This document shows, in pieces, positions 9,094 to 33,816 of a DNA stretch of 35,961 nucleotides. Position numbers and translations under genes: made by a program. The DNA is taken from contig JABDET010000009.1 of assembly GCA_013286945.1 (NCBI GenBank), positions 1 to 35,961 of the forward strand. Direction: 5' to 3'. Below the pieces are notes generated by a model, which worked only from the letters and a program-made list of their open reading frames with translations, had not been told where the DNA came from and did no database searches. Source of the stretch: Candidatus Melainabacteria bacterium. Lineage in GTDB: Bacteria; Vulcanimicrobiota; JABDET01. The stretch's first letter is position 1. Each line of letters starts with the position of its first letter.

Positions 9094-11832
9094 TTGACGA
9101 TTCTCTTGATTGATTGGCATGAGTCTTTCATTTTTGGACTCGCAAAGACAGGCCATCAATTTTACGTTGTGGAACCCAAAGTGTTAGGAATGACAAGAAT
9201 TGATGGAAAGGATTCTTGGCAAACCAACTATCGACCCATCCCGTCAAACGTTCACCTCATCTCTGAACTGGCGGAACTTCGGGAAGTTGTTCATGCTCAA
9301 AAAACCGATCTTGCGTTAGCGATTGCTTTTCTCGACATGGCCTTTTTCAAGCATCTTCCGATTCCCAAGATGTATTTCCCGATCACGGTCTTCTTGGGAG
9401 AATTCTCAACGCTAGGGAACCTCTACCCAGAAAAACAAACCGAAATCTACGAGTACATCCGAGGTTTGCTCCCAAACTATTTTCTTGCCTTTACCACACG
9501 CGAAGTCATGGAGAAAGAATTAGGGGATTCAAAACTTCCAGCTCATGTTTTTGATACCTACAATGCGATTCCGCTTGAAGATTACGGTCCGTACGTCGGA
9601 GACATCCCGAAGGTACTCCGAGTTGGAAATTTCCTAAAGGAACGGGAAGAATTCAACTATTCGCTCTTTTCCGAAGTCACGAAAGACATGCCTCACACGA
9701 TCTTGGGAAACAATCCTCACCTCCCCAATGCTCGAATCGCCGATGACTGGGATGATCTAAGACAAGCCCTTTGTCGGCACCGAGTTTTTTTCGCCACGAA
9801 TTCGCCTCGCTATGACTTCGTGGTCACCACGGCTCAATTAGAAGCCATGGCTTCGGGAATGCCTGTGGTCACCACACCTTATCCAAGCTGTGTCATCAAA
9901 GATGGGGAAAATGGCTTTGTTTCTTCCGATCCTCAAGTGCTCCGAGAAAGACTGTTGACTTTGTTAGATGATCAAGAACTGGCCGTGAAGTTAGGAAAAC
10001 GTGCTCGTCAAACCATTTCCGAAATGTTCAATTTTGAAAAATATAAAAGCGAATGGAACAAAATCTTCAACTTGGCCTTCGAATCTTTCATCCCGCGAAG
10101 AAACAGTTTTAAACCCATTATCGAGGAGCCTCAAATTGAACTCGAAGGCCCTTTACTCTCAGGAATTGATGGGGAGAGCAATCAAGGAATTGCTCACGCA
10201 TTGCGAACAAACAGAATTCCACTTGTCATGCATCCTAAACAAGGTAGAAAAACTCATGACAAACTCATGGCTCCCATTCTTGATTATTTCAAGACACTCG
10301 AGATCGCGGGGCAAAGTCTCCTCCACACGAAACCAGCCCCCTTTCGCCTTGTGTCTCCTTTTGACGGCCACCCCAAAGCGCTTTCTGAGAACACAAAATC
10401 GATCACTTACCTCCCTTGGGATTACGGCGCACTTCCCAAAAGCTGGGTCAGTCTCGTTCAGAACGGAACGGTGGAGGAAATCTGGGTCAATTCTGCCACT
10501 GAAAAAAAGTTTTATCAAGCTCAAGGGATTCCCGAAGCAAAGCTTGCTGTTTTTGCAAGGGGGTTTGACCCCGAGCGCTTGAATCCATCGGGGAGAAAGC
10601 TTCATCAGAATTTTGCAAATCGATTTGTCTTTCTTTTTGTAGGAACCACGGGCCTCGAAGAAGGTGGCAATCTTGCCCTCGATGCGTATATCAAAGAATT
10701 TAAGCCAGCGGATAATGTCGCTTTACTTTATCTAGCCACCGCGGAATCGGCATCTCTATTCAAGAAGTTAGAAAGTTTGAGTCACACCGGTACCTGCGCA
10801 GACATCGCCTTTGCCACAACGAACAGCATCGACACCTTGCCACTTTTTTACCGGATGGCCTCGTTTGGTATTGTAAGCCACTGTGGTTTGAACTTTCCAC
10901 GATTTCTCCCCCACTTCATCGGGCATGCGCTCCCTTTGGCCATCAGTGGTTATGGAGCCGGACTCGATATTCAACGTTGGGGGACCTATCACGCCATACC
11001 TACCTCCACTCATTTCATCGATGAGACACTCTTTCCGGAGCCTCTCACTGGAAAGCCTTTTCTGGGAAAGCCCGATGTGGAAAGCTTGCAAAGAATCATG
11101 CGTTATGCCTTTGAACATCCTGTCGAAACTAGAATAAGGGGTTTACTGGGAAGAAAAAAAGGACTCGAAGAGCTCGCTTGGAGGCGTGTTGCTCAAAACA
11201 TAGTCTCTCACCTTAATGGAAAAACAAGAAAGCAGTCTGAAGAATCAGTCCAACTGAATGTTTTGTTAGACCATCAGGAATCAGAATTCTGGTTAAGTAA
11301 CGGAATAGTTCATTCATTGTATGATGAATGGGAGCAAACAAGAGGCTTCGCATCAAAAAGTTTGGAGCGAAATCCGAACAACTTGTTGACAAAGGCAGTT
11401 CTTCTGGAGGCCAACGCGGCTCTTGGAAGCTTTGAAACTTCACTTTTCAGTGAAATCCTCTCGATGAAAGATTATTCGGATGTTGTTTTTCTCCATCTGG
11501 TCAAGGCAACGGAACATGCGAAAACGGAAGAATCTTTGGACAAACTCTTGCAGAATCGGAAACACCCTTATCAGCATTTGTTAGCCGCTCTTGGACTCTA
11601 TGAAACAAACCGCCACAAGAAAGCGATTCGAGTTTGTAGGGATGTTATAAGCAATCACCCCGATGCCGAAGCTCATGCCATTCTTGGGATGTTTCTCGAA
11701 AATGAAGATCCAGAAGAAGCGATGGTCCATTTCGAAAAAGCCTTCGAATTAGAGCCCTATCTGCGCTATCTGGAACCGTCTAAGTCTTCTCCAGAACGTA
11801 GACTCCATGATTGGTCAAGAACTCCCGAATAA
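9094..11832 (+). CDS. Two-module glycosyltransferase with TPR C-terminus (second GT module apparently degenerate)
   Basis: This is a 912-residue protein. Module 1 (about 1-345) is GT4-like: Glu250 lies in QLEAMASGMPVVTT, followed by GENGFVSSDPQVLRERL. Module 2 (about 370-710) aligns with the GT-B module of the 762-residue protein at 31528-33816. Shared landmarks are ARGFDPERLNPSG, YIKEFKPADNVAL, SGYGAGLD and MRYAFEHPVETRIRGLLGRK. Module 2 reads VGTTGLEEGG at 516-525, where the relative has VGGMIMRKGF, and CGLNFPRFL at 597-605, where the relative has EGFGLPTLE. The donor-binding Arg/Lys and both E-x7-E glutamates are therefore missing. The C-terminus (about 730-912) is TPR-like (AIRVCRDVISNHPDAEAHAILG). 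TTG at 9094 is the first start after an in-frame stop, and its N-terminus aligns with the paralogue at 25778. It overlaps the convergent methyltransferase by 53 bp. Confidence 0.82.
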   Translation: MTILLIDWHESFIFGLAKTGHQFYVVEPKVLGMTRIDGKDSWQTNYRPIPSNVHLISELAELREVVHAQKTDLALAIAFLDMAFFKHLPIPKMYFPITVFLGEFSTLGNLYPEKQTEIYEYIRGLLPNYFLAFTTREVMEKELGDSKLPAHVFDTYNAIPLEDYGPYVGDIPKVLRVGNFLKEREEFNYSLFSEVTKDMPHTILGNNPHLPNARIADDWDDLRQALCRHRVFFATNSPRYDFVVTTAQLEAMASGMPVVTTPYPSCVIKDGENGFVSSDPQVLRERLLTLLDDQELAVKLGKRARQTISEMFNFEKYKSEWNKIFNLAFESFIPRRNSFKPIIEEPQIELEGPLLSGIDGESNQGIAHALRTNRIPLVMHPKQGRKTHDKLMAPILDYFKTLEIAGQSLLHTKPAPFRLVSPFDGHPKALSENTKSITYLPWDYGALPKSWVSLVQNGTVEEIWVNSATEKKFYQAQGIPEAKLAVFARGFDPERLNPSGRKLHQNFANRFVFLFVGTTGLEEGGNLALDAYIKEFKPADNVALLYLATAESASLFKKLESLSHTGTCADIAFATTNSIDTLPLFYRMASFGIVSHCGLNFPRFLPHFIGHALPLAISGYGAGLDIQRWGTYHAIPTSTHFIDETLFPEPLTGKPFLGKPDVESLQRIMRYAFEHPVETRIRGLLGRKKGLEELAWRRVAQNIVSHLNGKTRKQSEESVQLNVLLDHQESEFWLSNGIVHSLYDEWEQTRGFASKSLERNPNNLLTKAVLLEANAALGSFETSLFSEILSMKDYSDVVFLHLVKATEHAKTEESLDKLLQNRKHPYQHLLAALGLYETNRHKKAIRVCRDVISNHPDAEAHAILGMFLENEDPEEAMVHFEKAFELEPYLRYLEPSKSSPERRLHDWSRTPE

Positions 11833-12691
11833 GGGGAAGTCTTGCCAAAAATCTCTCGAGACCTTTGTTACTTGGATAGCGCTTCGCGATTCGAAAAGGA
11901 GTTTGCTTGATGATGGATTCAAACTCCTTTAGCGTCAATCGGTTGAGGTGATTAATCTCCCAGAGGTGCTTTGAGGCCATGAGCTTTGTGGAATCATAGA
12001 AGTGATCTCCACCGGAAGACATTCTTTGAAGATGCCTTTCTTTGACAATCTCAAGAAGAACCTGTTCATGAAAAAAATATTGGCACCAAGGAATCGCCAC
12101 ATAGAAATTAATGTGTGTTCCAAGGCGCGAACGGTAAGGGTGAAATCGAACGAGAAACTGCCCCCCCTTCTTTAACACCCGGTAACACTCGGAAAAGAGA
12201 GGCAAGAGTTCCTCTCGATCAACGTGTTCCAAAACACTGCTTGAAATGATCGAATCAAAGGTTTCTTCTTTAAGTGGCAAGTCCGTTCCGGATGCAGAGA
12301 TGAATTCCACGCCGTTCTGACAATTTCGTTCTTGTGCAAAGTTTTGCGCTAATGGAAACTTCCTTGGATTCGGGTCCACTCCCACCGCTTTTCTTGCTCC
12401 ATGGCAAGCATAGTACACCGTCTTGCCCCCATCTCCGCAACCAAGATCAAGAATTGCTTTCCCCTCGATACTCTCTCCCGGAAAATCACCCAGAACAAAT
12501 GAAGCTCCCTTGTAATTATACTCCTGAAATTCTTTTGGATCTCGAAGCGGAATCTCAAGGCATGGAAAGTGTGGCATCAGTTTGTAACAAAGCCATTTTT
12601 GGAAAGCAGCATACTTCCTTCCAAGATCGAATGGCACTCCAACCTTAGTGGATGGCAGAGAGAGAGGTCGCATTTCCTTCACTGGTCCCAC
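11780..12691 (-). CDS. Class I SAM-dependent methyltransferase (Methyltransf_11-like)
   Basis: A 303-residue protein with a clear SAM core: motif I ILDLGCGDGGKT (about residues 80-91), VGVDPNP at the end of strand 2, FDSIISSSVLEHV in the motif 4 region and VLKKGGQFLVRFHP in the post-motif region. The insert after this (about 190-260) is rich in aromatic and basic residues and may shape the acceptor site. GTG at 12691 has AGGAGG 3 nt upstream; a GTG 9 nt and an ATG 18 nt downstream are alternatives. The start lies inside the 3' end of the upstream GT-TPR gene (47-bp overlap), so the two are co-expressed. Its 3' end overlaps the convergent large GT. It is the last gene of the long minus-strand group and a likely glycan methyltransferase; the target is unknown. 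Confidence 0.85.
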   Translation of the reverse strand: MGPVKEMRPLSLPSTKVGVPFDLGRKYAAFQKWLCYKLMPHFPCLEIPLRDPKEFQEYNYKGASFVLGDFPGESIEGKAILDLGCGDGGKTVYYACHGARKAVGVDPNPRKFPLAQNFAQERNCQNGVEFISASGTDLPLKEETFDSIISSSVLEHVDREELLPLFSECYRVLKKGGQFLVRFHPYRSRLGTHINFYVAIPWCQYFFHEQVLLEIVKERHLQRMSSGGDHFYDSTKLMASKHLWEINHLNRLTLKEFESIIKQTPFRIAKRYPSNKGLERFLARLPLIREFLTNHGVYVLEKT

Positions 12692-24038: not shown

Positions 24039-25781
24039 ATGTTTCTAGCGGGTCCATATGATTTGAAAGAAGCACCTCTTATCCGAGAAATGTATCTGGG
24101 TCGGGATGTCCTGTTGTATGGAAAATCAGCCGACATCCCCTATGACTTTGAAGCCGACAATTTTCAGAGTTTACTCGATCGAATTCCTTCGAACCAATCG
24201 ATTGATTTTCTTCTCTTTGTTTGCCCTGAATTTTTTGGGGTTCCTGTTGGAATCGAGCGTGCTCCATTCCCGGTGATCGGCGTAAGTTCAGACTGGAGCA
24301 TCAATTTGGAAGCCTTGGTTAAGATCGCTCCTTTTTTTTCTTATCTCGTTGTGGATCGTCCCGGGTTTAACACCTTTCAGGATTTTGGATTTCAAAATGC
24401 CACCTATGTCCCCCTGTATGGTTATTCCCCGACTCTTTATCAGTGGATGCCTGAAATCAAGAAGAGCTATGATATCACCATGATTGGGAATCTGAATGAC
24501 GTGGTTCACGACAAAAGAGCTTTTTACTTAAAGCGCTTGGCAATGCTAAGCTCCCAATACAACATCACCTTTGTCTCAGGCATTTATGGAAAAGATTACA
24601 CCCGACTGTTGAATGCTTCCAAAATTACATTTAATCACTCCATCCGCGGAGAGATGAACATGCGATGTTACGAGGCCCTTGCTTGCGGATCACTTCTCTT
24701 TTTGGAAGAAACCAATGTCGAAGCGAAACTTTACCTGCAAGACAAAGTTCATTGCATTTATTACAACGAACAAAACCTAGAGGAGCTTGTTCATTATTAT
24801 CTTTCCCACGATGACGAGCGAGACACCATTTCGAAAAACGGAAGAATATTTGTTCAAGATCACTCATATGCGCGGCAAATCGACCGTTTGCTCAAACGGA
24901 TTGAGGAAGTCAAAGAAGGCAGACTCCTCCGGACTCCGCCACAAGCAGCACAATGGAGTGAAGGCCAGAAAGCTCATGCCCGCTACTTCCATTCCCTGCA
25001 CACCAGCGAAATCTCTCGTTGCGAACCAGCAAGGCAAGCCATGCTTTTGCTCTCTCCAGACGAACCTTGTTATAATTTTTTAGCCGGCTATCTTGCTTTA
25101 CAATACAGTGACGCCGCACCCACTTCGGAGCGAAAGCGTTATTGGGAGCAAGCGGTTGAATGCTTTAATCAAGCGGTCCAGCGGCAGCCGTTCTTTCCTC
25201 CTCTGTATTTTAATTTTGGGAAAGCGCTGCTCAAGCTTAACCGTCACAAAGAAGCCATCGAGAAACTTTGGATTGGTGTTGCACTTTCAAAAACATGGGA
25301 TTCTACCCATGAAGAATTTGGTAGTCTGCTGTATCCCATCGATTATGACGCCTGGCATGTTGAAAAGGAGCGGCAATTTAAGGACAAAAAGAATCTAGGC
25401 GGCCTTCTAACGGCCCGATGCTTTGATGCCTTAGGAGATGCGGCGATGGCCACAGGAAATTTCAACGGAGCCATCAATTTTTATCAACAAGCATTGGAGT
25501 CAAAAATGAATGAATCTGAAATCTCAAAAAAACTTGGCGATGCCTTCGAAAAGATTGATGACCAACAAGGCCGGATTCAGGCTTACGAGCATGCATTAGA
25601 AAAGCGCCCTTTTTACATTGAGGTTTGGAAAATACTCCCAAGACTCTACCTGGCTGCTGGAGAAAAAAATAAGTTGCAAGATTTTTCAAAAGAAATCGTT
25701 AAGCTCATCAATGCATTCCCCGGACTAACCAGTCTGAAATCCGAATTTGAAGACTGGCTTGATCTAGCCAAAACCGCGTGA
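24039..25781 (+). CDS. CgeB-like glycosyltransferase with TPR C-terminus (divergent member)
   Basis: A 580-residue protein related to, but more distant from, the three 629-639-residue paralogues. The GT part (about 1-290) has SIDFLLFVCPEFFGVPVGIERAPFPVIGVSSDWS, YDITMIGNLNDVVHDKRAFYLKRL, FNHSIRGEMNMRCYEALACGSLLFLEE and the CgeB/Glyco_trans_1_2 end LEELVHYYLSHDDERDTISKNG. The C-terminal part (about 320-570) has TPRs (AVECFNQAVQRQPFFPPLYFNFGKALLKL, AINFYQQALESK, RIQAYEHALEKRPFYIEVWKIL). No signal peptide is seen; the N-terminus is shorter than in the paralogues. It leads the plus-strand operon that ends in flaG and fliD, and its stop overlaps the next gene's GTG by 4 nt. A probable cytoplasmic glycosyltransferase acting on the flagellar or surface glycan; donor and acceptor unknown. 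Confidence 0.82.
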   Translation: MFLAGPYDLKEAPLIREMYLGRDVLLYGKSADIPYDFEADNFQSLLDRIPSNQSIDFLLFVCPEFFGVPVGIERAPFPVIGVSSDWSINLEALVKIAPFFSYLVVDRPGFNTFQDFGFQNATYVPLYGYSPTLYQWMPEIKKSYDITMIGNLNDVVHDKRAFYLKRLAMLSSQYNITFVSGIYGKDYTRLLNASKITFNHSIRGEMNMRCYEALACGSLLFLEETNVEAKLYLQDKVHCIYYNEQNLEELVHYYLSHDDERDTISKNGRIFVQDHSYARQIDRLLKRIEEVKEGRLLRTPPQAAQWSEGQKAHARYFHSLHTSEISRCEPARQAMLLLSPDEPCYNFLAGYLALQYSDAAPTSERKRYWEQAVECFNQAVQRQPFFPPLYFNFGKALLKLNRHKEAIEKLWIGVALSKTWDSTHEEFGSLLYPIDYDAWHVEKERQFKDKKNLGGLLTARCFDALGDAAMATGNFNGAINFYQQALESKMNESEISKKLGDAFEKIDDQQGRIQAYEHALEKRPFYIEVWKILPRLYLAAGEKNKLQDFSKEIVKLINAFPGLTSLKSEFEDWLDLAKTA

Positions 25782-28513
25782 ATATCCTACTGGTTGATTG
25801 GCATGAGGCTTTCATTCACAATTTATGCAAACTCGATCATCAGTTCTTCATCATTGAACCAAAACTGCTTGGCATGCTGCGAATCGATGGTAAGAACGAA
25901 TGGCAAACCTCTTACCGTCCTTTCCCAAAGAATGCAACTCGCATTACCGATTTCAGTCAAGTCCGAGAGGGACTGAAGGAACATCAATTTGATATCACGC
26001 TGGGGTTAACCTATTTCGATCTTGCTTTTTTTCAAAAATTTCCTCTCCCCAAAATCTACTCTCCCATTTCTTCTTTTCGAGACGACCTCGGCATTTATGA
26101 AATCTTAGCCCCCGCCTACCAAAACGAAATTTACTCTTACATCTTGTCCTTGATGAAAGCCTTTGTTTTAGCCTTTTGGACCCGCGAAATTATGCAAAAG
26201 GAATTGCAGGGTTCAGCCCTCGAAGGCCATATTTTCGACTCTGGCGGGCTTTTTGATCCTGAAGATTATCATTCTTACACCGGTAAGATTCCAGGAGTCC
26301 TCCGCGTTGGACATTTGATTAAACAACGCACTTACTATAACGCTGAACTCCATGACCAAGTTCTGAATGGGATCCCACACCTCATTCTTGGAGCTAATCC
26401 AGATCTCCCAAACTCAAGACTCTCGAAAGATTGGGAGGATCTAAAGCATTGTTTAAGAGAATATCGAGTCTTCCTCGCGACGTATTCCCCTGATTACCAT
26501 CTCCCTTGCCCATTGGCCCAACTTGAAGCCATGGCTACCGGAATGCCTGTGGTGACAACTCCCCACACAGGGTGTCTTGTGAAAGACGGTGTGAATGGTT
26601 TTGTTTCTTCAGATCCGCAGGTGTTACGAGAAAAACTCCTGCTGCTCTTGCAAAATCGAGACTTAGCGATATCACTTGGCAAGAACGCCCGTGCTAGCGT
26701 CTTAGAAAAGTACGCCATAACAAAACACAAAGCAGAATGGGAGCTTCTTTTTAAGCAGGCCCAACAAAGCAAAACGAACAAATCTGCTTCCACACCCCTT
26801 CCCGACAACGATCTCGCCTTGCATTGGGAAGGCCCCTACTTCTATGGAGAGCCTTTTGGTTCGTTGAACCGAAAATCGCTTCAGGCCTTTCAGAAACTAT
26901 CCGGTGAAGTTTTCCCTGTTCCAAGAGAACCCAAGCGAAACCCTGATACCCAAAACCCTCATTTCGTCGATTTGTTGAAGGTCTTGGAGACTTTAGGAGA
27001 ATGCGCTTTGCGAGAGGATCATGCGGAACTTCGAATTCTTTCCCCGTTCGATCAGCCTCTTTATCCCTTATCCACTCTGAAAGCGTTCTCCGGGAAAACC
27101 AACGCGTTTTTTTGTTGGGAACACGGAGCGATTCCAATCCGTTGGCAAGAGGCGGTCAAGGTACAACAGATTTCCGAAGTTTGGGTGAACTCACACACTG
27201 AAAAACGCTTTTACGAAGCCCAAGGCATACCCGATGATAAACTTATTGTTTTCCCAAGAGGGATCGACCCCATTGAGACATCACCAACGGGGTTTTGCGT
27301 TAATCTTCCTGTAGAAAATAAGTTTGTCTTTTTCTTCATCGGGAACGCCTTATCGCTTGAAGGAGGAGACCTTGCGCTGATTGCCTACCTCAATGAATTC
27401 AAAAAAGATGAAAACGTGTCACTCATCTACGTGTGCACTTCAGAAGCTCCCGAACTCTTCGAAAGAATTAATCTTTTGGTTGCCACGGGGGAGATACCGG
27501 AAATGTATCCACAATGCATTCAAAGTGGCGGAATACTTAATGTCTTTTATCGTGCTGCTTCCTTCGCGCTCGTCCCTCATCGAGGCTTGGCGGTGCCAAG
27601 GTTTCTCCCTGAACTCATCGGGTCTGGTCTCCCTTTTGCGGTAACCGACTATGGTGGAGGGGGAGATTCACAATCCCTAGGAACTTCTTATCTCATACCC
27701 TCGATTATCAAGAACTTCGAACACGCCCATTCTTCTGAATCGCTCACGAGCGAGCCCTTCTTGGCAGAACCAGAAGTTGACACGCTTCGAAGAATCCTCC
27801 GCCATGTTTATCAACACCCAAAGGAAACACGCATCCGGGGGTTGCTTGGCCGTCAAATTGCCTTCCAGACCTCAACATGGGACAAGGTCTGTACCAAGAT
27901 TCTGAAGCACATCAAAGAGCCCGCCACCAAAGCGATTCGCGAAAACTCAACGCTTGCTTTACTTTTCAAAGAACAGCAAGGGAAGGCCTATCGCGATAAA
28001 GCGGCTACTCATCTCCTCTTTCAGGAATGGAAAGAAGCCAGCGACTTGGCAACACGAAGTCTCGAATTCATCCCCAAAGATTCTCTGACCAAATCCATTT
28101 TAGCAGAGGCAAAAGCAAACCTAAAAGAAAATGACAGCCTCACTTTAATTCAGGAGTTGTTCAAGCATGAGTCCCCACCAAGAGAAACGATTCCGCACTT
28201 GATTAAGGCCCTCCAGTCTTTGGGAGAAACTGGTATGATTGACCATTTCATGGAAAGAGGGCTGGACGCCGATTCGAAGCTTCTCGGGGTCCTCGGAATT
28301 CTTGAGTCCGGGAACAAAGAAGAAGCTTTCAAACGATGTGAGAAGATTGGTCGAACAGCGAATAATGCCGTGGCCTGTGCCATACTCGGGCTCCTCCGCG
28401 AAGATACGGATCCCATCGAAGCACTTTTTCACTATGAAAGAGGTATGGAAATCGATCCTGCTTTGGCATTTCTGCGATTAAAAATTCACAATAAGCTCGG
28501 GATTGCCTCTTAA
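25778..28513 (+). CDS. Two-module glycosyltransferase with TPR C-terminus (paralogue of 9094-11832; second module degenerate)
   Basis: This 911-residue protein matches the one at 9094-11832 end to end, starting ILLVDWHEAF. Module 1 (about 1-340) has YRVFLATYSP and QLEAMATGMPVVTT with Glu250 at the same residue number as its paralogue, then GVNGFVSSDPQVLREKL. Module 2 (about 370-710) has FPRGIDPIETSPTG, YLNEFKKDENVSLIY and a YGGGGD segment where active relatives have GYGAGLD. It reads IGNALSLEGG at 521-530 and RGLAVPRFL at 602-610 where an active relative has MRKG and EGFGLPTLE. The donor-binding Lys and both motif glutamates are thus gone, as in the paralogue. The last 200 residues are TPR-like helices. 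GTG overlaps the upstream stop (GTGA), so translation is coupled. Shared loss in two diverged copies argues for a kept, non-catalytic role. Confidence 0.82.
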   Translation: MNILLVDWHEAFIHNLCKLDHQFFIIEPKLLGMLRIDGKNEWQTSYRPFPKNATRITDFSQVREGLKEHQFDITLGLTYFDLAFFQKFPLPKIYSPISSFRDDLGIYEILAPAYQNEIYSYILSLMKAFVLAFWTREIMQKELQGSALEGHIFDSGGLFDPEDYHSYTGKIPGVLRVGHLIKQRTYYNAELHDQVLNGIPHLILGANPDLPNSRLSKDWEDLKHCLREYRVFLATYSPDYHLPCPLAQLEAMATGMPVVTTPHTGCLVKDGVNGFVSSDPQVLREKLLLLLQNRDLAISLGKNARASVLEKYAITKHKAEWELLFKQAQQSKTNKSASTPLPDNDLALHWEGPYFYGEPFGSLNRKSLQAFQKLSGEVFPVPREPKRNPDTQNPHFVDLLKVLETLGECALREDHAELRILSPFDQPLYPLSTLKAFSGKTNAFFCWEHGAIPIRWQEAVKVQQISEVWVNSHTEKRFYEAQGIPDDKLIVFPRGIDPIETSPTGFCVNLPVENKFVFFFIGNALSLEGGDLALIAYLNEFKKDENVSLIYVCTSEAPELFERINLLVATGEIPEMYPQCIQSGGILNVFYRAASFALVPHRGLAVPRFLPELIGSGLPFAVTDYGGGGDSQSLGTSYLIPSIIKNFEHAHSSESLTSEPFLAEPEVDTLRRILRHVYQHPKETRIRGLLGRQIAFQTSTWDKVCTKILKHIKEPATKAIRENSTLALLFKEQQGKAYRDKAATHLLFQEWKEASDLATRSLEFIPKDSLTKSILAEAKANLKENDSLTLIQELFKHESPPRETIPHLIKALQSLGETGMIDHFMERGLDADSKLLGVLGILESGNKEEAFKRCEKIGRTANNAVACAILGLLREDTDPIEALFHYERGMEIDPALAFLRLKIHNKLGIAS

Positions 28514-30317: not shown

Positions 30318-31531
30318 AATCCATTTCGACTCCCCCTCAAGGGACACTGTCTGAGGCTTTTGGCGACTCACCCGTCCGCTCAGAGTTTCTTCCGTTTCAT
30401 CAGCCCTGGATCGGGAATGAGGAAAGAAACGAAGTGCTCGACACCCTGGAAAGTGGCTGGCTCACCAAAGGGCCTAAGACCGTAGCGTTCGAAAAGCAAT
30501 TCGCGAACTTCATTGGAGTTCCTCATGCGGTTGGAACCAATTCCTGCACGGCAGCACTTCACTTAGCCCTGGTGGCTCTTGGGGTTAAACCCGGTGACGA
30601 GGTAATCACCACTCCGATCACCTTCGCTGCTACCGTCAATGTGATTGAACATTGTGGGGCACGACCAGTATTCGTGGATGTGGAAGAAAAAAGCCTCAAC
30701 TTGAATGTTGAGCTCCTGGAAAAAGCCATCACCTCGCGTACGAAAGCGATGATTCCAGTCCATTTTGCTGGCAAGATGTGTCACATGGATGAAATCATGC
30801 GAATCGCGCAAGAACATGGAATCAAAGTTATCGAAGATGCGGCCCATTCTCTTGAATCGCAATACCTTGGAAAATCACCCGGACAATGGGGAGATGTGGC
30901 TGCCTTTAGTTTTTACGCCACCAAGAACATTACAACAGGTGAAGGCGGAATGTTGGTGGCCAAGGATCCAGAACTTGCTGAAAGGGTTGCAGTCCTTAGC
31001 CTTCACGGATTAAGTCGCGACGCCTGGAAACGCTACAGCAAAGAGGGGTACCGTGACTGGGAGATTCTTGAACCTGGGTTCAAATATCACATGGCCGATC
31101 TGGAGGCCTCGCTTGGAATTCATCAACTAAGGAAAGTGCACGTTTTTTGGGAAAAACGACGGGAAATTGTTAACCATTACAATCACGCGTTCCAAGAAAT
31201 GAAAGAGATTGTTTCCATCACGCGCGAGGCAACCATCAACAGGCATGGGTATCACCTTTATGTGATTCGCCTGAAGATGGGCGACCGACTTACCCGAGAT
31301 CAAATGTTGGATCGTCTTCAGCAAGAAGGCATTGGGGTTGGAGTTCATTTTCGCGCCGTGCACCTGCACCCTTATTATAAGGAAAAATACAAAATCCCCG
31401 AAGGGACCTTGAATGTTGCTGAAAAGGCATCGGAAGAAATTCTTTCGCTTCCTCTTTATCCTCGAATGAGTTTAAAGGATGCGGATGATGTGGTTAGGGC
31501 CGTTAAGAAAATTATCGTATCCTCTAAGTGA
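30314..31531 (+). CDS. DegT/DnrJ/EryC1-family PLP-dependent sugar aminotransferase
   Basis: A 405-residue fold-type I aminotransferase of the ArnB/PseC/VioA group. It has FHQPWIGNEERNEVLDTLESGWLTKGPKT-type N-terminal sequence, GTNSCTAALHLAL, PGDEVITTPITFAAT, EDAAHSLES (cofactor Asp) and FYATKNITTGEGGM, whose Lys204 should bind PLP. It should transfer an amino group from glutamate to a 4-keto sugar nucleotide made by the preceding dehydratase. The TTG at 30314 is selected because it overlaps the dehydratase stop by 4 nt, with AGGTGG a short distance upstream, and gives normal family length. The following GT gene starts within its stop (GTGA). The GNAT or hexapeptide acyltransferases on the other strand could acylate the product. 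Confidence 0.92.
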   Translation: MKSISTPPQGTLSEAFGDSPVRSEFLPFHQPWIGNEERNEVLDTLESGWLTKGPKTVAFEKQFANFIGVPHAVGTNSCTAALHLALVALGVKPGDEVITTPITFAATVNVIEHCGARPVFVDVEEKSLNLNVELLEKAITSRTKAMIPVHFAGKMCHMDEIMRIAQEHGIKVIEDAAHSLESQYLGKSPGQWGDVAAFSFYATKNITTGEGGMLVAKDPELAERVAVLSLHGLSRDAWKRYSKEGYRDWEILEPGFKYHMADLEASLGIHQLRKVHVFWEKRREIVNHYNHAFQEMKEIVSITREATINRHGYHLYVIRLKMGDRLTRDQMLDRLQQEGIGVGVHFRAVHLHPYYKEKYKIPEGTLNVAEKASEEILSLPLYPRMSLKDADDVVRAVKKIIVSSK

Positions 31532-33816
31532 AAACGCTCCGGCTCGATCAGGGTTCTTCATTCCCAGACACGAAAGATTTGTACGACTCCATCATCGATC
31601 ATGGTTTCCTCCAGTCTCTTCCACGTTCCGAACGCAGCAGCTATTTAAAAAAAATTAAGACGCTGTTGTCTGTTGATGGAATTTTTCAAGTTCAGTGCAC
31701 CAATCGCCGTTTTCTCGAAACGGTAGGGAGTCCCGGAGAAAAGGCCCTCTCGACCCTTCTTTACTTTAACGAATTCATCACCCTTTTGGCACAGGAATTC
31801 TCGTGGCTAGAATTTCAGGGAAAGAAACCCAATCTCCCCAACATTACCTCAGGGATGAGTGAACATGACGAATATTTTCTAGCCTTTGGACACCTGAAAG
31901 AACAAGAAACCAAACCTCGGGTCTTGGTGATGGCTGAATCGGAAGCCCAGCTTTTCGAATATCTTACAAAACTTCAAAGCAGGGGCTATCATCCCGAGGG
32001 AATTTCTCTTCATCTTTATCAAGAAATTGTTTACCACAAGGAGTTCCGAATTCATCGCCTCCGAGGTTTGGCTCAGTTGCTTGTCACCACAACGCTTGTG
32101 AAACCCGAAGCCATTCTTCTCCCAAGAAACCTTACAAACATTAATCTCTTTTTTGATCACAAGAAAATCAATCTTGTTCATTCACTTGAAGACTTAGAAA
32201 TGCGTAAACCGAATATGCCTGTTCTTCAACAGAAGACCGCTTCAAACAAGATCGGTGTGATCTGGGAAGGGACATTTTTTGCTCACCACAGCTTGTCGCA
32301 TGTGAATGAAGAAGTAGCGTTGGCGCTCGATAAAGAGAAAATCAACTTGTCTCTCATTCCTTACGAAGCGCCACAATTTCTCAATAATTTGGAGCAGCGT
32401 CTTCGACGAATCGTCCCTTGCTTTCACGAAATTGCTGGTCAAGTTGATTTCCATGTACGGCACCACTGGCCCCCCAATTGGGAAGAACCTCTCCAAGGGG
32501 AGCTTGTTGTCATGCAACCTTGGGAATTTGGAAGTTTGCCAGCTTACTGGCTCCGGAGTCTCGAAAACGTCAGAGAAATTTGGGCTTACACCCATTTTGT
32601 TCGAGACACTTATGTCCGCAGTGGTGTTCCTCCGGATCGAGTTCACGTGATTCCTCTTGGAATTGATCCCGAAATCTTTTCCCCCGAAGGTCCGAAGCTT
32701 CCATTAAAAACCGAAAAGAAGTTTCGTTTTCTCTACGTGGGGGGGATGATCATGCGAAAAGGGTTCGATCTGCTTATCAAAGCTTACCTCCAAGAATTCA
32801 AACCTGATGAAGATGTTTGCCTTGTCATTCGAGACTTTTATTACCAATCGGAATGGAAAGCCCAAATCGAATCATTAACCGGGAGAAATGATTTGCCAGA
32901 AGTCATTCTTTTTTCCGACTCGCTCCTCCCCGAACAACTCCCTTCGCTTTTTCGCGCGTGCCACGTTTCGGTGCAACCGTATCGTGGAGAAGGATTTGGG
33001 TTACCGACCTTGGAAGCGATGGCTTGTGGCCTTCCTCCGATCGTAACTGGCTATGGAGCTGGGCTCGACTTCTGCCATTCTGGAAACGCTTACCTGGTTC
33101 CCGCAAGGCTTACCCTTGCTGAAAGCAGCTCAGTCGACACGTTGCACACCATCGACACCCCTTTCTTAGCTGAACCGGATGTCCCCGCGCTTCGAAGAGC
33201 GATGCGGCACACCTTCGCCAACCACCGAGAAACAGTCCACCGTGGACTCTTAGCCGCCGGGGAAGTTCGGCAGGATTGGACCTGGAAGCGAACCGGAGAA
33301 AGAGTCCTTGAACGACTCCATGCGTTGAAAGGGCGAAAACCTGAAAAGCTCTCCATCAATCCCCCCGTTTCGACCACGGCTTACGTTGAAAGCTACAATG
33401 AAAGCCCTCAAGACCTCCAAAAGAGTGGCTGCAATTCTGTGAGCTTTAACATCTGGAACGCACACGCCAACTTAGAAGAATCCCTCATTGATTCTGAATC
33501 CTACTTTCAAAAGCTCCTGCAACTCCCTCAATGGAAAGCCGAAGGGCTCTATGGTCTGGCTCGTGTTGCGATCCAACGCCGCCAAGAAGCTGAGGCGCTC
33601 CAGTTTCTCGAAACCACTGTCGAAGTGTCCCCTTTTCATTCCTTGGCATGGCTTGACTTGGCTCTTCTTGCGCAAAAAGTGGGAGACGCCGACAAGGCTG
33701 TCCTAGCGGCCTTGGAAGCTCGAAAAAAATTTCCAGAAAACCCCTTAAGTCCTAAACCAAAGGGGTCGATAAAGGAAGAGGATAAGTATCTCTATGGGGG
33801 GCCAAGGACGGTGTAA
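31528..33816 (+). CDS. GT4-type glycosyltransferase with methyltransferase-like N-terminal remnant and TPR-like C-terminus
   Basis: A 762-residue protein. Residues about 15-65 (LYDSIIDHGFLQSL, YLKKIKTLLSVDGIFQV) read like the second half of a SAM methyltransferase core, but motif I is absent. From about 240 to 620 it is a GT-B GT4 glycosyltransferase: IPLGIDPEIFSPEG, FLYVGGMIMRKGFDLLIKAY with Arg410/Lys411 for the donor phosphate, and EGFGLPTLEAMACGLP with Glu488 and Glu496 as E-x7-E. All catalytic landmarks are present, unlike the second modules of the two approximately 910-residue proteins. The C-terminus (about 660-745) is TPR-like (EALQFLETTVEVSPFHSLAWLDLALLAQK). It starts in the aminotransferase stop (GTGA) and ends 3 nt before flaG. 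Likely adds the amino sugar made by the three preceding genes; acceptor may be a flagellar protein. Confidence 0.87.
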   Translation: MKTLRLDQGSSFPDTKDLYDSIIDHGFLQSLPRSERSSYLKKIKTLLSVDGIFQVQCTNRRFLETVGSPGEKALSTLLYFNEFITLLAQEFSWLEFQGKKPNLPNITSGMSEHDEYFLAFGHLKEQETKPRVLVMAESEAQLFEYLTKLQSRGYHPEGISLHLYQEIVYHKEFRIHRLRGLAQLLVTTTLVKPEAILLPRNLTNINLFFDHKKINLVHSLEDLEMRKPNMPVLQQKTASNKIGVIWEGTFFAHHSLSHVNEEVALALDKEKINLSLIPYEAPQFLNNLEQRLRRIVPCFHEIAGQVDFHVRHHWPPNWEEPLQGELVVMQPWEFGSLPAYWLRSLENVREIWAYTHFVRDTYVRSGVPPDRVHVIPLGIDPEIFSPEGPKLPLKTEKKFRFLYVGGMIMRKGFDLLIKAYLQEFKPDEDVCLVIRDFYYQSEWKAQIESLTGRNDLPEVILFSDSLLPEQLPSLFRACHVSVQPYRGEGFGLPTLEAMACGLPPIVTGYGAGLDFCHSGNAYLVPARLTLAESSSVDTLHTIDTPFLAEPDVPALRRAMRHTFANHRETVHRGLLAAGEVRQDWTWKRTGERVLERLHALKGRKPEKLSINPPVSTTAYVESYNESPQDLQKSGCNSVSFNIWNAHANLEESLIDSESYFQKLLQLPQWKAEGLYGLARVAIQRRQEAEALQFLETTVEVSPFHSLAWLDLALLAQKVGDADKAVLAALEARKKFPENPLSPKPKGSIKEEDKYLYGGPRTV

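Follow-up and report, generated by a model that had tools for sequence, protein, structure and literature searches.

Where inactive glycosyltransferases are known to aid active ones, they are mostly subunits of their own. In the GtfA-GtfB O-GlcNAc transferase of the Gram-positive accessory Sec systems, GtfB is inactive and serves GtfA by binding the acceptor (PMC12809243). The Caulobacter crescentus flagellin glycosyltransferase FlmG binds flagellin through a TPR domain (PMC7591256), and the pseudoglycosyltransferases VldE and ValL are active enzymes that form non-glycosidic bonds (PMC3441724, PMC12041759). A model of the GT4 enzyme GumH places Arg198 and Lys203 in contact with the donor diphosphate, Glu279-Ile283 and Asn174 on the donor sugar and Glu287 on the ribose (PMC13104830), and mutation of the first glutamate of the EX7E motif nearly abolishes the function of GnaT (PMC12856342). 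Here, we consider a 912-aa protein encoded in a 35,961-nucleotide stretch of a Candidatus Melainabacteria genome (contig JABDET010000009.1; hereinafter the window), in which two GT-B modules, M1 and M2, precede a helical tail (Table 1), and in which M2, a GT4 derivative without the residues of the GT4 donor site, is fused in cis.

Gene, architecture, and genomic neighborhood

The frame of the 912-aa protein is open and starts at a TTG codon immediately 3' of a stop, a start backed by alignment with the N-terminus of a paralogue (MNILLVDWHE). The 3' end of the gene shares 53 bases with a methyltransferase ORF that runs convergently to it on the minus strand (11780-12691). A Pfam scan of the protein recovers glycosyltransferase models in M1 only (residues ~198-312), whereas M2 is matched by no Pfam model, those for glycosyltransferases included; the TPR matches of the tail are weak, below cut-off and near the C-terminus. 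In the full-length AF2 model, which is poor (pLDDT 57, pTM 0.39) and too weak for the relative placement of the modules, the tail is helical, mostly with pLDDT 70-85 across residues 750-880.

The window also encodes TPR glycosyltransferases, methyltransferases, acetyltransferases, an NTP-transferase, WbqC, a GDP-mannose dehydratase-like protein and a DegT aminotransferase, followed by fliD, a content that marks it as a predicted surface-glycan or flagellar glycosylation island. The flagellin genes are on other contigs of the genome and none lies in the window: four tandem Flagellin_N genes, one of them cut short, are found at 19675-26005 of contig C18 (genome G000), and a fifth is on contig C35.

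Table 1. Features of the tandem GT-B protein and its relatives in the window
Feature	Position	Strand	Details
Tandem GT-B protein, M1 + M2 + TPR-like tail	9094..11832	+	912 aa; open frame, Pfam, same-genome paralogues
M1, first GT-B module	9094..10098	+	residues ~1-335; PF13692 and PF00534 above cut-off
Ile at M1 residue 97, replacing conserved His	9382..9384	+	His in 20/22 relatives
DFVVT at M1 residues 241-245, replacing EDGYN loop	9814..9828	+	E, D, G, Y, N each in 20-21/22
M2, second GT-B module, degenerate GT4	10156..11241	+	residues ~355-716
R489 of M2, at canonical PNG Asn position	10558..10560	+	invariant in three copies
VGTTGLEEGG at M2 residues 516-525	10639..10668	+	E522 and E523 replace RKG basic pair
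LNFPRFLPH at M2 residues 599-607	10888..10914	+	true counterpart of EGFGLPTLE; gap-free alignment
Helical TPR-like C-terminal region	11242..11829	+	residues 717-912; weak TPR Pfam matches, weak-model helices
Paralogue with identical M1 + M2 + tail layout	25778..28513	+	911 aa; degenerate M2; E 5.5e-222, 40% identity
Motif-intact GT4 closest to M2, with a TPR-like tail	31528..33816	+	RKG and EGFGLPTLE kept

The second module retains a GT4 fold and has lost its donor-contact residues

A reading of the sequence alone had aligned M2 with the GT4 module of 31528-33816 and suggested a pseudo-glycosyltransferase, and both the homology (E 3.9e-36) and the fold bear this out. An AF2 model of M2 (372 aa, 12-row alignment; pLDDT 77, pTM 0.79) has the two Rossmann-like domains of solved GT-B enzymes: it superposes on sucrose-phosphate synthase (6kih) with Z 29.8 and rmsd 3.4 over 325 residues, and on HepE and MshA with Z ~29, GT4 enzymes including PimA falling at Z 26-30. 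A PDB search with the M2 sequence alone gave no match, whereas a search with the M2 profile gave 68. In the tree, the three M2 copies of this genome form one clade (support 100/100), which sits on a long stem (2.33 changes per site) as sister to the motif-intact 31528-33816 (99/94), placing the descent of M2 from GT4 enzymes. The first 240 aa of 31528-33816 (31528-32250) match no Pfam family and may be a degenerate methyltransferase; a relative of this gene (L015) carries a methyltransferase domain ahead of its GT4 module.

The landmarks FDPE, YIKEFKP and GYGAGLD are found in M2 as first reported, as is the change of VGGMIMRKG to VGTTGLEEG at 516-524. The second reported change, of EGFGLPTLE to CGLNFPRFL at 597-605, was right in its letters and residue numbers and off by two residues in its register. 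In the corrected register, the claimed loss of the arginine, the lysine and both glutamates holds, Arg being replaced by E522, Lys by E523 and the glutamates by L599 and H607; M2 is thus devoid of the EX7E motif and of the lysine that contacts the donor diphosphate, the latter being E, E and D over the three copies. Among 22 canonical M2 homologues drawn from this genome and 149 genomes of its phylum, the first two positions are Arg in 21/22 and Lys in 22/22, and the others are Glu in 22/22 (599) and 21/22 (607). A fifth conserved basic position, K547 (Lys in 20 and Arg in 2 of the 22), is lost from M2 as well. The donor-contact positions, assigned by alignment to GumH and not from side-chain geometry in coordinates, are kept at 0/5, compared with 30/46 of the other conserved positions (Fisher p=0.009, a value that mostly reflects one historical event, since the three copies share ancestry); the test covered the 51 positions at which at least 80% of the canonical relatives agree, with 'kept' meaning kept in at least 2/3 copies.

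An old loss shared by three diverged copies

The paralogue at 25778-28513 reads IGNALSLEGG and LAVPRFLPE at the two motifs. In a third M1+M2 copy, on another contig of the same genome (C61), the frame breaks at eight consecutive G (L011:3200-3212), possibly because of a misassembly or because the tract is phase-variable. Both copies share with 9094-11832 the loss of the lysine and of the first glutamate: position 599 is L in all three, and position 607 is H, E and W in 9094-11832, 25778-28513 and the third copy, respectively, the second glutamate hence not being lost everywhere. Because the three copies form one clade sister to 31528-33816 and share the loss, the latter is best seen as an old event that was followed by duplication and retention. 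Judged from the alignments, it is universal inside this three-copy family and absent outside it among the relatives examined: the motifs are kept in the canonical homologues and also in M2 relatives from phages and from two more genomes, one of Planctomycetales and L123. An alignment of homologues had been proposed to gauge whether the loss is universal, and it proves to be so only within this one genome.

Among the collections searched, in which other phyla were sampled, the M1+M2 fusion was seen in this genome alone, itself 67% complete. A first scan of genome contigs with the full-length pair gave no matches; a second gave mostly generic GT4 matches, along with L040, a Magnetococcales protein that has M1 only, and L041, a Planctomycetales protein that carries M2-like modules. 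The plasmid search was empty. One viral scan recovered M1-like genes and motif-intact M2-like genes, two further viral scans gave no matches and another yielded only its own query; one viral candidate (L100) was dropped as unrelated. On the phage-like contigs L079-L082, an M1-like gene lies directly 3' of a motif-intact M2-like GT4 gene, unfused.

Identity between the copies is 32-42% in M2, 46-49% in M1 and 27-33% in the tail, and the figure for M2 argues that this module has been kept rather than abandoned. M2 could otherwise be a decaying, functionless relic, tolerated where only M1 and the tail are needed, as might be suspected from the long stem branch after the loss (2.33) and from its somewhat lower conservation than that of M1 (fraction of columns invariant among the three copies, 0.26 vs 0.35). 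However, the fold, the frame and many landmarks persist in three diverged copies, and the C-terminal half of M2 is 42% identical between copies, well above the 28% of the tail, making such a relic highly improbable.

The residues that now occupy the M2 site offer a lead. R489, the acid at 523, L599, P602 and R603 are common to all three copies, and L605 and P606 are likewise invariant; the equivalent of R489 in GumH is Asn174, which contacts the donor sugar in the model (PMC13104830). The emptied site looks remodelled, with a partial charge inversion of the pocket, and the shared residues could close it by internal salt bridges or make a new site for binding. M2 might even be active with changed chemistry, binding a different donor through R489 and R603 with the acid at 523 repurposed: the five residues first named are shared by copies that are ~40% identical, their positions face the donor in GT4 enzymes, and an acid of the N-terminal domain is retained (D443 here, E in the other two copies). 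We nevertheless consider this improbable, as the copies agree in ~26% of M2 columns, so that a few shared residues are expected, the 597-610 loop shows no significant enrichment of invariant residues (6/14, p=0.13), and an acid in place of the diphosphate-contact lysine argues against any nucleotide-diphosphate donor.

The first module is altered on its sugar side

Region 1-331 of the full-length model, weak as that model is as a whole, matches BshA (6n1x) with Z 22.0 and rmsd 3.9 over 301 residues, and M1 is accordingly also a GT-B module. Compared with 22 M1 relatives, it keeps 44/63 conserved positions, including R176 and E250; with K182 and R184 also present, the basic residues and the ribose glutamate are retained. 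The view of M1 as plainly intact is overturned, however, by the loss of the EDGYN loop and of His 97. Residue 97 is Ile in all three copies, His 77 (conserved in 20-21/22 relatives) is Ile as well, and at the EDGYN position the paralogue 25778-28513 reads HLPCP. From its position after a conserved strand, His 97 would be the equivalent of the donor-side His of GT4 enzymes, and M1 is then without this residue and without the first acid of the EX7E-type motif (F242, D in relatives), E250 being kept. By the residues present, neither module of the 912-aa protein appears to hold a complete GT4-type site, and M1 would be the sole module with a recognisable, plausible nucleotide-diphosphate site. This bears on annotation, as Pfam calls the protein a glycosyltransferase via M1 alone, whose sugar-side residues are altered too.

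Relatives of M1 occur as free-standing ~340-aa proteins in Magnetococcia. Those of another phylum are joined in one chain to a second glycosyltransferase of another, CgeB-like type (DUF3880/Glyco_trans_1_2), which the M2 profile does not match, usually together with a methyltransferase (L116-L118 and L122; L119 is without one) and in most cases with a TPR tail; the M1 of these fusions keeps EDGYN. A fusion of M1 to a second glycosyltransferase is thus not unique to this genome.

A proposed role for the tandem protein

We propose, with a probability of roughly six in ten, that M2 is literally a pseudo-glycosyltransferase, a GT-B module without catalysis. The protein probably takes part in the modification of flagellin, or of some other surface product, with sugar in the cytoplasm, where M2 and the TPR-like tail would serve to hold the acceptor or some partner. 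The ancestor of M2, a GT4+TPR gene like 31528-33816, would have been duplicated and fused behind an M1-type GT-B module, the fused M2 would then have lost its nucleotide-sugar site, and the degenerate fusion would have been copied into at least three genes. Any transfer would take place at M1, because it alone retains a recognisable nucleotide-diphosphate site. The initial suggestion of a pseudo-glycosyltransferase kept for binding thus stands in that a non-catalytic role is the best reading of a module whose fold is kept, whose donor residues are lost and which was retained through duplication. One of the ligands then offered, a nucleotide sugar, finds no support, because Lys 523 is acidic in all three copies and a second conserved lysine is lost.

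Three observations pull against this proposal: M1, the supposed active partner, is itself without the EDGYN loop and His 97; the invariant R489 and R603 and the acid at 523 could make a different working site; and the second glutamate is kept in the paralogue 25778-28513. The first bears on the whole protein, as the catalytic partner that a 'pseudo-module' implies is in doubt because M1 has lost sugar-side residues, and the 912-aa protein may for the same reason be wholly non-catalytic. M1 would then hold a nucleotide or nucleotide sugar without transfer, and the protein, as an adaptor or chaperone, would offer flagellin or some other acceptor to other enzymes of the cluster. We judge this unlikely, while treating it as a serious rival: M1 has DFVVT for EDGYN and isoleucines for two histidines present in 20-21/22 relatives, and the other TPR glycosyltransferases of the cluster could do the transfer; yet R176, K182, R184, E250 and the other kept conserved positions of M1 persist, EDGYN is also missing from more distant M1 relatives, which are free-standing proteins or phage genes, and the third copy carries an acid at the -8 position. 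On that reading, with sugar-side residues gone from both modules, a former enzyme pair would have turned into a clamp or chaperone without enzyme activity, acting on an acceptor such as flagellin and amplified into at least three paralogues in one lineage.

Comparison with known systems

The pseudo-glycosyltransferase theme is itself known; what appears to be new here, as read from the alignments, is the set of M2 site residues shared by three copies and the absence of sugar-side residues from M1 as well. The motif-intact sister gene ~20 kb off in the same cluster, together with the three diverged copies, allows an enzyme to be compared directly with its repurposed copy. With the GT4 retaining glycosyltransferases MshA, HepE and PimA, M2 has the GT-B fold in common, but it is without the basic pair and the EX7E residues that these and GumH possess. 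With VldE and ValL it shares only the word pseudoglycosyltransferase, and no such activity is implied for M2. FlmG, like the 912-aa protein, combines a TPR-like region and a GT-B module in one chain, but its TPR domain is N-terminal and accompanies one GT module, whereas here two GT modules precede a C-terminal tail; FlmG binds flagellin, whereas the flagellar link of the 912-aa protein is one of gene neighborhood, with fliD in the window and the flagellins elsewhere. The proposed role of M2 resembles that of GtfB, a GT-B protein that is not catalytic and binds the acceptor protein on behalf of its GT4 partner. GtfB, however, is a separate subunit of a tetramer, whereas M2 belongs to a single chain encoded in another genomic context; the partner of GtfB is active, whereas M1, the candidate partner of M2, is altered too.
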